Virus record (IMG/VR): IMGVR_UViG_3300029915_000033
Coordinates: 1-56,297 of that record
DNA: 56,297 nucleotides
Strand: one strand, 5' to 3'
From: a virus
Under the pieces are notes generated by a model that saw only the letters and a list, made by a program, of their open reading frames with translations, was not told the DNA's origin and did no database searches. The translations under genes and the position numbers were made by a program. Shown here in pieces: positions 3,577 through 51,746 of this stretch (position 1 is the stretch's first letter; each line of letters opens with the position of its first letter).

Positions 3577-3808
3577 TTCCCGCAAGGGAACGTAAGCGGC
3601 GTGGAAAGATAGAGAATCGATAACGGGGCTGACTAATAGGGCCGTCCGATGCAGATTACTTGGAGACACGCTCAGACAGCCAGACCCATTACCGCGAAGA
3701 GCAGAGCCATGACTGAAGAGTCAGCGAAGTGACACTCAAGGTGCTGAAGCCATCCATAACTTGTGGGTGCTAGAAAATTGGGGTATCGGAGTAGCGTCCG
3801 GTCTTACG
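3577..3808 (+). ncRNA. Structured RNA, copy 1 of a two-copy family
   Basis: The 254-nt gap between two plus-strand genes has no convincing reading frame but strong secondary structure. It opens with a perfect hairpin TTCCC-GCAA-GGGAA (3577-3590, GNRA loop). A long-range stem CGTAAG (3591-3596) with CTTACG (3803-3808) closes the rest. Inside are GCGTG/CACGC (3599-3603 with 3667-3671), TGACT-GAAG-AGTCA (3710-3723), CATCC/GGGTG (3751-3755 with 3765-3769) and ATCGGA-GTAGCG-TCCGGT (3785-3802). Ordered blocks GCGGC, GGAAAG, TAGAGA, AGACAG, ACCG..GAAGA and GCGTCC recur in the same order at 50050-50253. It lies directly upstream of the ribosome-binding site of the next gene, so it could be a leader or a processed RNA. 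I do not recognise the family. Confidence 0.75.
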
Positions 3809-3828
3809 TTAAATATTAGGAGTCAGTA

Positions 3829-4734
3829 ATGATATCAGTTGATAGACCAGCACCAGAGAAACGCAAAATTAGCAGTAAAGATGACTTTGAACTGTGTTAT
3901 TTAAGACACCAATATCTTCGTAAAGCTAAAGGTAATCCTACCGCAGAAGAAATGGCTCCATACATTAAAATTGTAGAGAATCTTTCTCGAAATACTTTTT
4001 TTACTTACTATAACCTATTTAAAACGGTTGGCATGTACTTAGACGACGTTACCAGTATTGGCCAAGTGCATCTAGTGTCTTTCCTAAATCTATTTACTCT
4101 AGAGCAGATGGAAGAGAAAATGGACGCATGGGTGCTAAAATGGTTATTGAAACATAGCGGTGTTCATCCTGAAGCAAAAGATTTCTTGCAACAAAATAAG
4201 GCTAACTTTTCCATATTCTACAAACAACGCATGGAAGACTTGGTTCGGATCTGCAAGCAAAAATTAAGAAATATTAAGGGTCAATCATCGGAAGAATACC
4301 TGTCGTTTACTGGTACTGGCAAGCTTCCTCGTGATATAACCAAACTAATCAAAGAGTATGAAGAATATGGCTTTAAGAAAGTTGATTTTCCAACTTTCAA
4401 GTCAATCAGAAAAAAGGCAAACGTAAAAAATAACGTAATGGCTTTTAAATTTGGTGAGTCTTGGTATGTGTCTTTTCCGATACCCCAAAGAGAACTAGAA
4501 ATCGAAGATTTAATTGTTTCAGAAGTTAATCCTTATCTAAACACCCATAATAGACGCCCTGATCAAGTTCTCAATGATAATGAAGTAGAAAAGTTTACAA
4601 TGATTTTCAATAACAAAACAGACACTAAAAAGGTGCTTATTTTAAAGAAATTTATTGCAAAAAATCGAAATAAGAGCGAATATAGAAAAGAAGTGTCTAC
4701 AGCAAGAAAACTACTTAAGACTATTGGGGCGTAA
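3829..4734 (+). CDS. Conserved-looking phage protein of the replication block, unknown
   Basis: 301 residues, with AGGAG 9 nt before the ATG. It is helical and very basic, with a helix-turn-helix-like N-terminal half (NPTAEEMAPYIKIVENLSRN, then TFFTYYNLFK) and a C-terminal lysine-rich tail (KKFIAKNRNKSEYRKEVSTA). The N-terminal part could bind DNA. It begins right after structured RNA copy 1 and overlaps the next gene by 1 nt (TAATG), which leads into the helicase. Position suggests a replication accessory role, such as helicase loading or transcription control, but this is inference only. Confidence 0.6.
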   Translation: MISVDRPAPEKRKISSKDDFELCYLRHQYLRKAKGNPTAEEMAPYIKIVENLSRNTFFTYYNLFKTVGMYLDDVTSIGQVHLVSFLNLFTLEQMEEKMDAWVLKWLLKHSGVHPEAKDFLQQNKANFSIFYKQRMEDLVRICKQKLRNIKGQSSEEYLSFTGTGKLPRDITKLIKEYEEYGFKKVDFPTFKSIRKKANVKNNVMAFKFGESWYVSFPIPQRELEIEDLIVSEVNPYLNTHNRRPDQVLNDNEVEKFTMIFNNKTDTKKVLILKKFIAKNRNKSEYRKEVSTARKLLKTIGA

Positions 4735-6424: not shown

Positions 6425-6883
6425 ATGGCTTTTATTACATTGACTCAAAATAAAATCGCTGAAGTGGACGAAGAAGATCTACCAAAACTTCTTAAACATA
6501 AATGGATTTATAGCACTAAAAATAAAAAATTTCAAGGATATGCTCAAAGCAATAGAAGTACGGGAAGTATCTATATGCATAGATTGATAACAAATTGTCC
6601 ATCGGATAAAATTGTAGACCATAAAGATGGAAACACCCTAAACAACAAAAAAGAAAATTTAAGAATTTGTACTCAAAAAGAAAATATGAGAAATTCAAAA
6701 ACCAAAAGTGACAATAAATCTGGTTATAAGGGTGTACATTTACATAAATTAACAGGAAAATGGAGATCACAAATTACGGTTAATGGGAAAACAATATCTT
6801 TAGGGCTATTTGACGACCCCAAAGAAGCGGCTGAAGCAAGAAAAAATGCCGCTAAGATGTATCACGGAGAATTTTATAAATGA
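6425..6883 (+). CDS. HNH homing endonuclease with AP2 DNA-binding domain
   Basis: 152 residues. The HNH core is visible as YMHRLI (about 51-56), IVDHKDGNTLNN (63-74) and NLRICTQKEN (about 78-87), followed by an AP2 domain (SGYKGVHLHKLTGKWRSQI, then LGLFDDPKEAAEARKNAAK). The same HNH_3 plus AP2 arrangement occurs at 10387. It is a free-standing mobile gene placed immediately after the helicase, and the small gene after it seems to have lost its ATG. It would make a site-specific cut in endonuclease-free alleles of this locus. Confidence 0.9.
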   Translation: MAFITLTQNKIAEVDEEDLPKLLKHKWIYSTKNKKFQGYAQSNRSTGSIYMHRLITNCPSDKIVDHKDGNTLNNKKENLRICTQKENMRNSKTKSDNKSGYKGVHLHKLTGKWRSQITVNGKTISLGLFDDPKEAAEARKNAAKMYHGEFYK

Positions 6884-8230: not shown

Positions 8231-9277
8231 ATGAAATGGACCAAAAATTCTGTTGCCAGAGAAGCAAAGAAATATCGTACCGTATCGCAGTTTTTTCGCC
8301 ATAATAGGAAAGCGTATAGTGCGGCATATAATTTGGGCATCTACAAGAATGTTACCAAGCATATGACAAGAAAAACCTTATCTGGTAAAAATAACCCTAG
8401 ATTTAAATGGACTTTAAACAAAATAAAAAAAGAAGCATCTAAATATTTTATTAGAAGCGATTTTTGTAAAAAATCTAAAGGTGCATATGCAGCAGCACTT
8501 AAAATGGGAATTCTTGATAGGGTTTGTGTTCATATGCCTAAAAATGCAAGTATTGGAAGAATTCCCAATAATAAAAAATGGAATAGGGACTCTTTAACAA
8601 AAGAGGCAAAGAAATACAAAACTAGGAGTAAGTTTTGGAAGTTTAGTGGAGCAGCATGTTTTGTGGCGACTAAAATGGGTATCTTGAATGAAATTTGTGT
8701 TCATATGCCTAAAAATAAATCCATCCTTTTTGGAGAAAACAATCCATTTTTTAAATGGACCGATGAGATGTTAATGCTAGAAGGATCAAAATACAAAACA
8801 AGATCAGATTTTTATAAATTTAGTAGCAGCGCATATGTAATATCTGCCCGCAGAGGATTTTTGGATAAAGTTTGTAATCACATGAAATATTCTGGAATAA
8901 CATCTTCTTCCGAAAGAGATATTATGGCCGAAATAAAGAAAACATATCCAGACGCAAAATTATTTAGAGACAGAAAGGTTAAAATAAAAAATAAGCCTCA
9001 CATAAAAGGTTTCGATATAGATATATTTATTCCATCTTTACATAAAGGTATTGAATTCGATGGAACATATTATCACAGTTTTGAATATATGAGAGCTAGT
9101 GAAAACAAAATTTTATGGTCCAATAAAGATATTAAAAATTACCATAAAATCAAGGACTTATATTTTAAATCTAAAGGTATTGACATTTTACACATAAAAG
9201 AGGAGAATTGGATTAACGATAAGAAAAAATGCTTACAGAAAATTTTTGATTTTTTAAAGGTAACCAATGGTCCGTGA
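8231..9277 (+). CDS. Homing-type endonuclease with four N-terminal repeats and Vsr/EDxHD-like domain
   Basis: 348 residues. The N-terminal 215 residues consist of four repeats of about 45-55 residues, each following the pattern W-T, E-A-x-K-Y-x-T-R-S-x-F, A-Y-x-x-A-x-K-M-G-I-L-D and C-x-H-M. These are probably tandem DNA-binding helical modules. The C-terminal part (SSERDIMAEIKK, FDIDIFIPSLHKGIEFDG, then HIKEENW) has the E, D, H and D spacing of the EDxHD/Vsr-like nuclease family, as in the phage enzyme I-Bth0305I. It follows the primase-like gene with a 5-nt gap and overlaps the next gene by 11 nt. It is a free-standing mobile gene. Confidence 0.75.
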   Translation: MKWTKNSVAREAKKYRTVSQFFRHNRKAYSAAYNLGIYKNVTKHMTRKTLSGKNNPRFKWTLNKIKKEASKYFIRSDFCKKSKGAYAAALKMGILDRVCVHMPKNASIGRIPNNKKWNRDSLTKEAKKYKTRSKFWKFSGAACFVATKMGILNEICVHMPKNKSILFGENNPFFKWTDEMLMLEGSKYKTRSDFYKFSSSAYVISARRGFLDKVCNHMKYSGITSSSERDIMAEIKKTYPDAKLFRDRKVKIKNKPHIKGFDIDIFIPSLHKGIEFDGTYYHSFEYMRASENKILWSNKDIKNYHKIKDLYFKSKGIDILHIKEENWINDKKKCLQKIFDFLKVTNGP

Positions 9278-9797: not shown

Positions 9798-10390
9798 TGA
9801 GTGAAGAACATAAATTTTTAGAAATAGAGTGTAAATATAGTGCAGATGATATTGACCGTATTGCATTTAAAGATTTGGCCAAAAGTCTAGGCCCTAACAA
9901 ATTTATATATGTAGAGTCTAAGGATGTATACTATGTTAGGCAAGAAAATGAATTTCTAAGATATAGAATGGCGTCAGAAAATAGATTGGCTGGAGAAGAC
10001 GAATATCGGTCCGAACTTACTTTTAAAAAGAAACATATCAATCAAAACAATTGGATTCGTACAGAAGTAAATTTAAGAGTAGACAAAAATACTCCAGAAT
10101 TAGTAATGGCTTTTTGTGAAGGCCTGGGATATAGTAAAAATTTTAGTATTGATAAGGCTTGCGATATTTATTTTTTTGATGATGCGGATATTGTTTATTA
10201 TTCTGTAAAAGACGAAGATGGTAAATATTCCTATTATCTTGAAATAGAGGCTGATGAGACTATCGGAATGACACCAGATAAGGCATGGGAAGTTATTTTA
10301 AAATATGAAAAATTACTTTCTCCATTAGGCATTACTGCTCAAAAAAGAAAGCGCTTAAGTCTTTTTGAAATGTATAAGAAAAACAAATGA
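9797..10390 (+). CDS. CYTH-domain (triphosphate tunnel) protein
   Basis: 197 residues. The signature E-x-E-x-K is at the N-terminus (FLEIECKY; E9, E11, K13). The alternating charged beta-strands that build the tunnel follow: VYYVRQENEFLRYRMAS, YRSELTFKKK, NNWIRTEVNL and YYLEIEAD. CYTH enzymes cleave or cyclise triphosphates (thiamine triphosphatase, class IV adenylyl cyclase, inorganic tripolyphosphatase), usually with magnesium or manganese; which substrate applies here cannot be read. It starts a new transcript with a leaderless promoter, and an HNH-AP2 gene overlaps its stop by 4 nt. Confidence 0.85.
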   Translation: MSEEHKFLEIECKYSADDIDRIAFKDLAKSLGPNKFIYVESKDVYYVRQENEFLRYRMASENRLAGEDEYRSELTFKKKHINQNNWIRTEVNLRVDKNTPELVMAFCEGLGYSKNFSIDKACDIYFFDDADIVYYSVKDEDGKYSYYLEIEADETIGMTPDKAWEVILKYEKLLSPLGITAQKRKRLSLFEMYKKNK

Positions 10391-10908
10391 AAGTAATAGA
10401 ATTAACTAGAGAAATGATTACGTTTGTAGACGATGAAGATTTTGACAAACTAAGTCATTATAAATGGTCTTCTAGGCCTGACAGAAGTGGGAATTGCTAT
10501 GCCCAAAGAGCAAAATATTTGGGAAAGATTAATGGTAAATATAGATCTACTACAATACAAATGCATCGAGAAATATTACAAATTCAAGATCCAAAAATAA
10601 AAATAGATCATAAAAACGGAAATACTTTAGATAATACAAAAAATAATTTACGCATAGCAACAGCAAGAGAAAATAATACAAACTTACATGCCCTAAAAAG
10701 AAATAATACTAGTGGATATAGGGGCGTAATAAAAAGAAAAGACGGTAAAAATGTTTTATGGAGATCCAGAATAAATTTACCAAATGGAAAAAAGAAAAGC
10801 TTAGGTCAATTTACGACCCCCGAAGAGGCGGCGAGGGCTTATGATAGAGCAGCTAAAGAAATATACGGTAAGTTTTGTGGAAAATTAAATTTTGAAGGAG
10901 AATCATGA
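10387..10908 (+). CDS. HNH homing endonuclease with AP2 DNA-binding domain
   Basis: 173 residues with the same architecture as the protein at 6425: a beta-rich N-terminus (VDDEDFDKLSHYKWSSR), HNH motifs MHREIL (about 59-64), IDHKNGNTLDNTKNNLRIAT (about 75-94) and an AP2 domain (SGYRGVIKRKDGKNVLWRSR, then FTTPEEAARAYDRAAKE). Its ATGA start overlaps the CYTH gene and its stop overlaps the next lipoprotein gene. It is a second member of the same mobile family, not adjacent to the first. Confidence 0.9.
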   Translation: MKVIELTREMITFVDDEDFDKLSHYKWSSRPDRSGNCYAQRAKYLGKINGKYRSTTIQMHREILQIQDPKIKIDHKNGNTLDNTKNNLRIATARENNTNLHALKRNNTSGYRGVIKRKDGKNVLWRSRINLPNGKKKSLGQFTTPEEAARAYDRAAKEIYGKFCGKLNFEGES

Positions 10909-25152: not shown

Positions 25153-25204
25153 CTTACTAATTTAGTAAGCTTTTTTATTAAATTTAGTAAGCTTTTTTAT
25201 TAAA
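25153..25204. terminator. AT-rich terminator made of two tandem 22-bp repeats
   Basis: CTTACT-AATTT-AGTAAG (25153-25169) is a hairpin followed by CTTTTTT. The unit TTTAGTAAGCTTTTTTATTAAA is repeated exactly twice (25161-25182 and 25183-25204) and then decays. The region separates convergent genes, so it can end transcription from both sides. Confidence 0.55.
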
Positions 25205-49821: not shown

Positions 49822-50046
49822 ATGCCTAAAGGAATTCTAGAATTTAAATTACCAGAAGAAAAAGAAGAATTTGAGGAAGCTCAAAAAGGTGGAATTTACA
49901 AGCTCGTTCTTTGGGACTTAGACCAGCATCTTAGGGGTATTATAAAATACAACAATGATAAACATGACGAAAAAAGCTTGGAAGCATTCCAAAAAACTAG
50001 GGACACTCTTCATGAGTTCCTTAAAGATTACGAATTAGATTTATAA
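49822..50046 (+). CDS. Unknown helical phage protein
   Basis: 74 residues with GGAG 8 nt before the ATG. Two acidic helices (KLPEEKEEFEEAQKGGIYKL, VLWDLDQHLRGIIKYNNDKH) recall small dimeric helical proteins. It is the last gene of the plus cluster and its stop is immediately before structured RNA copy 2. No function assigned. Confidence 0.55.
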   Translation: MPKGILEFKLPEEKEEFEEAQKGGIYKLVLWDLDQHLRGIIKYNNDKHDEKSLEAFQKTRDTLHEFLKDYELDL

Positions 50047-50049
50047 AAT

Positions 50050-50418
50050 TTGCGGCAACACGGAAAGCTAGAGATGGTATTGGGACCGTAGTACTACCCA
50101 ATTTAAGACAGAAATGCGCCACCGGAAGACGTGTCCAAGATCGTTAGGGCTGGAGCCTTATTGTGCGTTAGGAGAGCGAACCTGAACGCATCGAGTGCAG
50201 GGTAGATACTGCATAGGTAAAAATCCAGAGTGGGGATTGCGTCCCACCCGCAATATTATTGAAGGTTTAGTGGTGCCAGGAAGAAATTCGCTGGTAGAGT
50301 ACGTCGGACAACTAGGTAGTTAAAGTCTGTACTACAAAAGGGAAACAAAAAGATCTGGACGAGTGTACATACGCCAGTGAAGCCAAGTAGAAAACAGAGA
50401 CTCGCTACTCGCCACTAA
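50050..50418 (+). ncRNA. Structured RNA, copy 2 plus a second closed domain
   Basis: Domain 1 (50050-50253) is closed by TTGCGG/CCGCAA and contains ATTGGG/CCCAAT (50079-50102), a 9-bp TGCGTTAGG with CCT(G)AACGCA (50164-50190), TGCAG/CTGCA (50196-50213) and GGGA-TTGCG-TCCC (50233-50245). It carries the ordered blocks seen in copy 1 at 3577. Domain 2 (50267-50418) is closed by TTAGTGG/CCACTAA, extended by U-G and G-C pairs, and holds CCAG-GAAGAAATTCG-CTGG, AACTA-GG-TAGTT and CTGG/CCAG hairpins. It ends in TTATTTTTTTT, so the RNA probably has a defined 3' end. It lies in a convergent region with no reading frame. Family not recognised. Confidence 0.78.
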
Positions 50419-50429
50419 TTATTTTTTTT
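50267..50429 (+). terminator. Stem closing domain 2 followed by a T8 tract
   Basis: The final stem (TTAGTGG 50267-50273 with CCACTAA 50412-50418) is followed by TTATTTTTTTT (50419-50429). This would stop transcription of the plus-strand unit. The T-tract is also the lysine-coding end of the convergent small gene. Confidence 0.5.
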
Positions 50430-50586
50430 CGTAGTTCTTAACTTCTTCTTTGATGATCTTGCGACCTTTTTGTCGCTCTTTTCGATAAGCCTTGCGCTTA
50501 TCCTTAATATTACCATATCCATCCGTAGCCATTTCAATTGCCTGGAGGACTCTCTTTGCGGTCTTTAGTGTATCTATTTTTGCCAT
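50419..50586 (-). CDS. Small basic protein
   Basis: 55 residues, ATG 50586. It is strongly basic and helical (LKTAKRVLQAIEMATDGYGN, then KDKRKAYRKERQKGRKIIK). Basic helical peptides of this type often bind nucleic acid or a host polymerase, but nothing more can be said. It is the last gene of the minus cluster and ends at the T-tract of structured RNA copy 2. It is too short for a typical gene-call threshold. Confidence 0.55.
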   Translation of the reverse strand: MAKIDTLKTAKRVLQAIEMATDGYGNIKDKRKAYRKERQKGRKIIKEEVKNYEKK

Positions 50587-51061: not shown

Positions 51062-51313
51062 CTATAAAAATTTAACTTCGCCAGAGATACTGGTAATATA
51101 AAAATCTAGGAAGTTATCGGAATACGGGACCTTTGGATAGCGTTCTTCAAATTCCTTGAAAAAAGTTTCCATGTCTTTTATGGATGTAAACTTCCGCATC
51201 GCTGGGGTACAATTCTCGACATAGTATACTATATGAAATAATTTGTCTTTAGATTTTTTAATTGTCTTTTTTGCCACTTTATTCTCCAAATTTACTAATA
51301 ACTTTTTCTGCAT
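51062..51313 (-). CDS. Unknown small basic/helical protein
   Basis: 83 residues (KKLLVNLENKVAKKTIKKSK, then HIVYYVENCTPAMRKFTSIK). Highly basic N-terminus with an alternating strand-helix fold after it. Its start overlaps the HAD-like gene by 35 nt; a shorter start within it is possible but no better site is visible. Confidence 0.5.
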   Translation of the reverse strand: MQKKLLVNLENKVAKKTIKKSKDKLFHIVYYVENCTPAMRKFTSIKDMETFFKEFEERYPKVPYSDNFLDFYITSISGEVKFL

Positions 51314-51746
51314 CAGAAAATGTCAGTCCGTTTTTACCATCTACTTGGACCAATCGATCCATATATGGTTCTAGGTCTTTGTCGTCATCAATGATGGTAA
51401 AATTTGTGATCTCTGGATGATGTTTTAAATATAAAGCAACTTCTTGCCCTCTGTACCCATTTTCCAAAATTGGTGTAACACCAACAATGAAAGATGCAGG
51501 TATATTATATTTATCAAACATTTCTTGGAGAGTTTCTAGGCTATACAATTTTCTCCAAGTAGAGGAAATTACTATTTCAACACCAGTAACTTCTTCTAAG
51601 ATATATTTAAGATTCGACATAGAAATGGGATCAAAAGCTTTATGACTAGACGAATTACTCAAACCCAATAGGTTTAAGCGATTGTTGTGAATCATTGATC
51701 CTACGGTAACGAGAGGTCCATCAATATCCAAAAAAATTACTTTCAT
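51279..51746 (-). CDS. HAD-like phosphatase-fold protein
   Basis: 155 residues. Motif I KVIFLDIDGPLV (D-x-D at 7 and 9) gives the catalytic aspartate pair of HAD enzymes; motif II is in VVISSTWRKL (S), and motif III/IV in FTIIDDDKDLEPYMDRLVQVD. These are arranged as in phage HAD proteins related to the Swiss Army Knife RNA-repair HAD family (motif IISSTWR). Likely removes a phosphate, for example from nucleotides or RNA ends. Overlaps the HNH gene start by 4 nt. Confidence 0.75.
   Translation of the reverse strand: MKVIFLDIDGPLVTVGSMIHNNRLNLLGLSNSSSHKAFDPISMSNLKYILEEVTGVEIVISSTWRKLYSLETLQEMFDKYNIPASFIVGVTPILENGYRGQEVALYLKHHPEITNFTIIDDDKDLEPYMDRLVQVDGKNGLTFSDAEKVISKFGE

Follow-up and report, generated by a model that had tools for sequence, protein, structure and literature searches.

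Introduction

Does the DNA at 50254–50429 of a virus genome record encode a structured RNA of its own, and to what kind of RNA would it belong? The window, that is, the whole stretch of DNA analyzed, comprises 56,297 nucleotides (positions 1 to 56,297 of IMG/VR virus record IMGVR_UViG_3300029915_000033). A sequence-only reading had described two similar elements in it, copy 1 and copy 2, and had placed in copy 2, after a first domain, a second closed RNA domain with its own terminator-like end (domain 2) in a convergent, gene-free region. The setting is as described: the genes at 49822–50046 (+) and 50419–50586 (−) converge on a gap of 372 nt (50047–50418) that holds no open reading frame of 50 amino acids or more on either strand. 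The locus is delimited by the following features.

49822–50046, + strand: 74-aa gene immediately upstream of copy 2
50267–50275, + strand: outer stem P1 of domain 2, 5′ strand; 9-bp pairing with 50410–50418, one U-G
50410–50418, + strand: outer stem P1 of domain 2, 3′ strand; pairing with 50267–50275
50422–50429, + strand: T8 tract, common to the relative G004, which is without domain 2
50419–50586, − strand: 55-aa convergent gene immediately downstream of copy 2, kept in G004

Results

The fold of domain 2 in isolation

The outer stem of domain 2 is formed by TTAGTGGTG pairing with CGCCACTAA. Its interior of 134 nt begins with a GAAA-loop hairpin (CCAG-GAA-GAAA-TTC-g-CTGG, 50276–50294) and contains further short hairpins, and the T8 tract follows downstream, all as the sequence-only reading had it. 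No second domain is present at copy 1, where the outer stem reaches to about 3810 and the following gene begins at 3829. The isolated fold of domain 2 was close to chance (minimum free energy −37.3 vs −36.1 ± 4.1 in shuffles, z = −0.29), single-sequence folding gave no signal on either strand, and a long-range stem of at least the length of P1 arose in 21 of 300 dinucleotide shuffles (7%). Because fold and stem are ordinary when taken alone, the evidence for a real RNA comes solely from comparison with a homologue. The stem before T8 is long-range, and a scan for terminator patterns calls no local terminator at 50422.

A previously uncatalogued class of phage RNAs

Copy 1, domain 1 of copy 2 and a third copy, found in G004, have a core in common, GCGTGGAAAG...GAGACACGC. 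Searching IMG/VR with a pattern of this core yielded 43 stretches, most of which also possess an outer stem (P1) and a P7 hairpin, neither required by the pattern. P1 is usually 6–16 bp long and differs in sequence between members with its pairing kept; the P7 hairpin, which has a GT(A/C)GCG-type loop, directly adjoins it. The first pattern fixed P2, and a second pattern, in which this restraint was relaxed, recovered members with P2 helices of GTGTG/CACAC and ACGTG/CACGT. In an alignment of 39 members, 93.6% of cells in the helices were paired, compared with 69% in shuffles, and 22 of the 23 pairs show compensatory changes on both sides. None of 500 shuffles reached the covariation score, and the signal vanished when partners were slid by 1–3 columns. 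The resulting covariance model has 54 distinct matches, mostly in IMG/VR phages, of which the 39 used to build the model match by construction, unlike the other 15. Members are 130–230 nt in size, occupy more than 40 phage loci and occur in several copies per phage genome; in five phages (L139, L152, L134, L133 and L182) tandem units lie 17–84 nt apart. Two members of the class lie in the window.

3589–3810, + strand: copy 1, full class member, 18 nt before the gene at 3829–4734; 86.0 bits, with an identical copy (L155) included in the model; relatives in L003–L005
50048–50254, + strand: domain 1 of copy 2, full class member; 77.3 bits, domain 1 being among the sequences used for building the model; relative in G004; covariation

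The canonical order of elements is P1, two linker bases (mostly CG), P2, P3, a variable insert, P7 and P1′. The P2/P3 arm carries GGAAAG...GAGA, with a P2 internal loop of GAAAG-CT/T(G/A)-GAGA. The insert is 32–116 nt long, and in many members a helix P4 begins 12–20 nt into it and ends beside P7, with a second helix, S1, crossing P4 to give an H-type pseudoknot. A two-helix pseudoknot test against shuffled inserts gave p ≤ 0.1 for 15 of 39 members where about 4 were expected, a class-wide excess that is not significant member by member; P4 tested alone gave a weak signal (4/39 at p ≤ 0.05). The S1/P4 pseudoknot is therefore a likely feature across the class as modelled, not proven for every member.

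In 7 of 39 members (1.8% expected) a promoter-like sequence ends immediately upstream of P1, and in 15 of 39 (6% expected) P1 is closely followed by a T run. This placement fits small RNAs that would start and end at P1, in some members at least. At least 13 of 41 members are located 7–41 nt before a gene on the same strand, and these downstream genes are mutually unrelated, which makes control of one particular gene unlikely. Others lie at convergent ends, in tandem, or beside tRNA genes (L124 and L147). At L124:54-1326, the class RNA sits within a cluster of seven phage tRNA genes, directly after tRNA-Leu.

No match to Rfam 15 (4227 families, including GOLLD, ROOL and AbiF RNA) was obtained in the window or on class members, and no description of the class was found in the open-access literature. 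The class is thus previously uncatalogued, being absent from Rfam 15 and from the open-access literature searched. The copy-2 region had no match in INPHARED, and short core queries gave no usable match in INPHARED or PLSDB, which is weak evidence given how short the conserved stretches are. Of five matches in genome contigs, L164 and L167 are real and L165, L166 and L168 were judged false for want of P7. A further set of stretches (L146, L148, L156, L160, L171–L173, L175–L177, L180, L184 and L185) was rejected as chance pattern matches.

Domain 2 resembles the variable insert of a class member

Domain 1 (50048–50254) has the full anatomy of the class, with P1, P2, P3 and P7 all pairing. Domain 2 has an outer stem that closes the unit (a property that 7% of shuffles also reach) and a variable insert with the S1/P4 pseudoknot. 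The 19-nt hairpin stands where class members have the P2/P3 arm and its GGAAAG and GAGA, and P7 with its GT(A/C)GCG loop is absent between P4′ (50405–50409) and P1′ (50410). The class model does not match domain 2 even with filters off. Lacking two defining features, domain 2 is not counted as a full class member.

One class member, L157, located upstream of a gene for a phage chaperonin (Cpn60_TCP1), has an insert with which the interior of domain 2 aligns. The alignment score of 77 is 8.7 sd over the mean of 2000 dinucleotide shuffles (30.1, sd 5.4, maximum 55), and the aligned stretch lies precisely within the insert slot, where the pseudoknot keeps its register. In a 1.5-Mb search space the match has a BLAST E-value of 0.01 and an nhmmer E-value of 0.11. 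Order and spacing of the blocks GTACGTCGGACAAnnAGGTAG..AAAGTCTGT and AACAGAGACnnGCTAC are preserved between the two sequences, and patterns derived from these blocks identified L157 as the only homologue of the domain 2 module in IMG/VR. The interior is read as follows.

50276–50294, + strand: 19-nt GAAA-loop hairpin, at the place of the P2/P3 arm in class members (from sequence and canonical order)
50297–50300, + strand: putative pseudoknot helix S1, 5′ strand, GAGT; two compensatory changes relative to L157
50315–50319, + strand: predicted helix P4, 5′ strand, GGTAG; RNAalifold on domain 2 and L157, two-helix pseudoknot test
50326–50330, + strand: TCTGT, which may pair with ACAGA at 50394–50398; predicted in domain 2 and L157, invariant and so without covariation
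50400–50403, + strand: putative pseudoknot helix S1, 3′ strand, ACTC; compensatory changes relative to L157
50405–50409, + strand: predicted helix P4, 3′ strand, CTACT; RNAalifold, two-helix pseudoknot test

RNAalifold applied to domain 2 and L157 gives P4 as GGTAG/CTAC(C/T), in which a G-C to G-U change keeps the pairing, and S1 changes from AGGT/ACCT in L157 to GAGT/ACTC in domain 2 by two compensatory changes. In the predicted pseudoknot, 50297–50300/50400–50403 crosses 50315–50319/50405–50409. The internal hairpins of the sequence-only reading are present, but the interior helices that comparison backs form this pseudoknot rather than nested hairpins alone. A reading of domain 2 on the reverse strand was ruled out, as the L157 homologue aligns on the plus strand. 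Judged from these sequence comparisons, domain 2 is probably a pared-down tandem unit of the class, or one of its modules set free. A second degenerate unit, L170:5092-5289, has its arm shortened and adjoins a full member, and the insert of copy 1 resembles that of L151 by inspection.

The two domains of copy 2 are separable

A search of IMG/VR with the window's UvsX-like protein recovered six related phage records. In G004 (114 kb), one of the six, a domain 1 that is 80% identical to that of copy 2 and has an altered P2 stem is flanked by the same two genes; the same T tract lies 8 nt after it, and the domain 2 of about 160 nt is absent. The two domains thus do not always occur together and are separable. 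Domain 2 does stand as a self-closed, additional tandem unit, 12 nt from a strongly covarying RNA, but the terminator-like end ascribed to it is not its own, because the T tract is retained in G004 without domain 2 and so belongs to the locus.

Copy 1 stands before the gene at 3829–4734 in the window and before the same gene in L003–L005. In a distant 155-kb phage record (L174:604-765, minus strand) a class RNA directly precedes a homologue of this gene, which indicates that the position of copy 1 is old.

Discussion

In the reading preferred here, with modest confidence, domain 2 would be a pared-down tandem unit of the uncatalogued phage RNA class, co-transcribed with domain 1 and folded so as to present itself to a protein. 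It would retain the outer stem and the variable pseudoknot module and have neither the P2/P3 arm nor P7. A scan upstream of copy 2 showed no promoter. Transcription therefore probably reads into copy 2 from the dUTPase-containing genes upstream, and domains 1 and 2 together would form the 3′ part of that transcript. Such a transcript would end at the shared T8, and the two domains would fold as neighbouring self-closed bodies, most likely presenting a surface to a host or phage protein. A division of labor in which the scaffold binds the protein and the module sets specificity is favored; this could be a role in trans or a general role in cis, such as mRNA protection.

Several other explanations bear on the same observations. 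One is that domain 2 is no functional RNA, its stem and its likeness to L157 having arisen by chance; the z of −0.29, the stem frequency in shuffles, the failure of the class model and the existence of a single homologue speak for this. An alignment so far above the shuffle mean, placed precisely where a class member has its insert and keeping the pseudoknot in register, argues against it, and chance is considered very unlikely. A mere 3′ UTR or terminator structure at a convergent gene junction, with the likeness to L157 a functionless relic, is also unlikely, to a lesser degree: domain 2 does end a gene run, with T8, and G004 does without domain 2 and retains the T tract, but a terminator requires neither a 134-nt interior nor a compensatorily kept pseudoknot, and the pattern scan finds no local terminator at T8.

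Somewhat more credible, though still improbable, is the proposal that the class consists of cis-acting mRNA elements, in 5′ leaders and intergenic spacers, that protect or control the adjacent message in the manner of the T4 gene 32 leader pseudoknots, with domain 2 as a 3′ version. The members that closely precede same-strand genes speak for it, as does the position of copy 1 before the gene at 3829–4734 in the window and in L003–L005 and of a class RNA before its homologue in L174. However, the genes downstream of members are mutually unrelated, and some members are found at convergent gene ends, beside tRNAs or in tandem. Returning to the preferred reading, a broader form of it is conceivable but less assured than the reading itself: the class may be widespread among uncultured phages and built as a constant scaffold (P1, P2/P3 and P7) that displays exchangeable modules, which could also stand alone in tandem as at 50254–50429, and phages may swap modules to change the host or phage factor engaged.

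The closest known systems include GOLLD and ROOL, structured RNAs of phages and prophages with pseudoknots, often near tRNA genes and of unknown function (PMC12286853). The class resembles them in being pseudoknotted phage RNA, with tRNA neighbors at two loci, and in GOLLD, too, parts differ in conservation, the 3′ part being conserved and the 5′ part less so. The class differs in size, GOLLD being often longer than 800 nt and ROOL likewise large, and in its core, and it has no Rfam match to either. The AbiF RNA motif (Rfam RF03085) is likewise a structured RNA carried by prophages (PMC12373285); AbiF RNA, however, works with an adjacent Abi_2 protein, whereas the class is unmatched by RF03085, and the surroundings of copy 1 and copy 2 yielded neither an Abi_2 nor a defence protein. 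The T4-type gene 32 mRNA leader, a protein-bound pseudoknot in a phage mRNA (PMC535899, PMC3014915), provides a model for a possible mechanism of the class, but it serves one gene, whereas class members precede unrelated genes, occur in tandem and have a conserved P2 and P7 core.

The novelty lies in the RNA class, and this context is of more interest than domain 2 itself; as a kind of thing, the class joins other phage RNAs of unknown function. Its occurrence in several copies per genome, in tandem and with modules in common indicates that phages evidently maintain it, and identifying its partner could uncover a new RNA tool used in infection. Since a close relative, G004, naturally lacks domain 2, the contribution of the extra unit can be tested directly.

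Other features of the window and its relatives

In a relative at 79% identity, G006, a different gene-free stretch of about 500 nt (L007:10903-11410) replaces copy 1 before the same gene. Long inverted repeats, TTTTAAGATA/TATCTTAAAA among them, give it a structured appearance, and no match to it came from Rfam or the class model. This 166-kb phage record (L032–L040) has many gene-free stretches of 150–1480 nt by a simple coding-score scan, which may contain further RNA genes. No tRNA or tmRNA was found within the window. A HAD_SAK_2 gene, encoding the HAD domain of Swiss Army Knife RNA repair proteins (Pfam E-value 1.2e-24), lies near copy 2 at 51279–51746 (−), and three HNH or homing endonuclease genes are present in the replication region (6425–6883, 8231–9277 and 10387–10908, all +). 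At 25159–25202, a 22-nt A+T-rich repeat, AATTTAGTAAGCTTTTTTATTA, occurs as two identical copies arranged head-to-tail.
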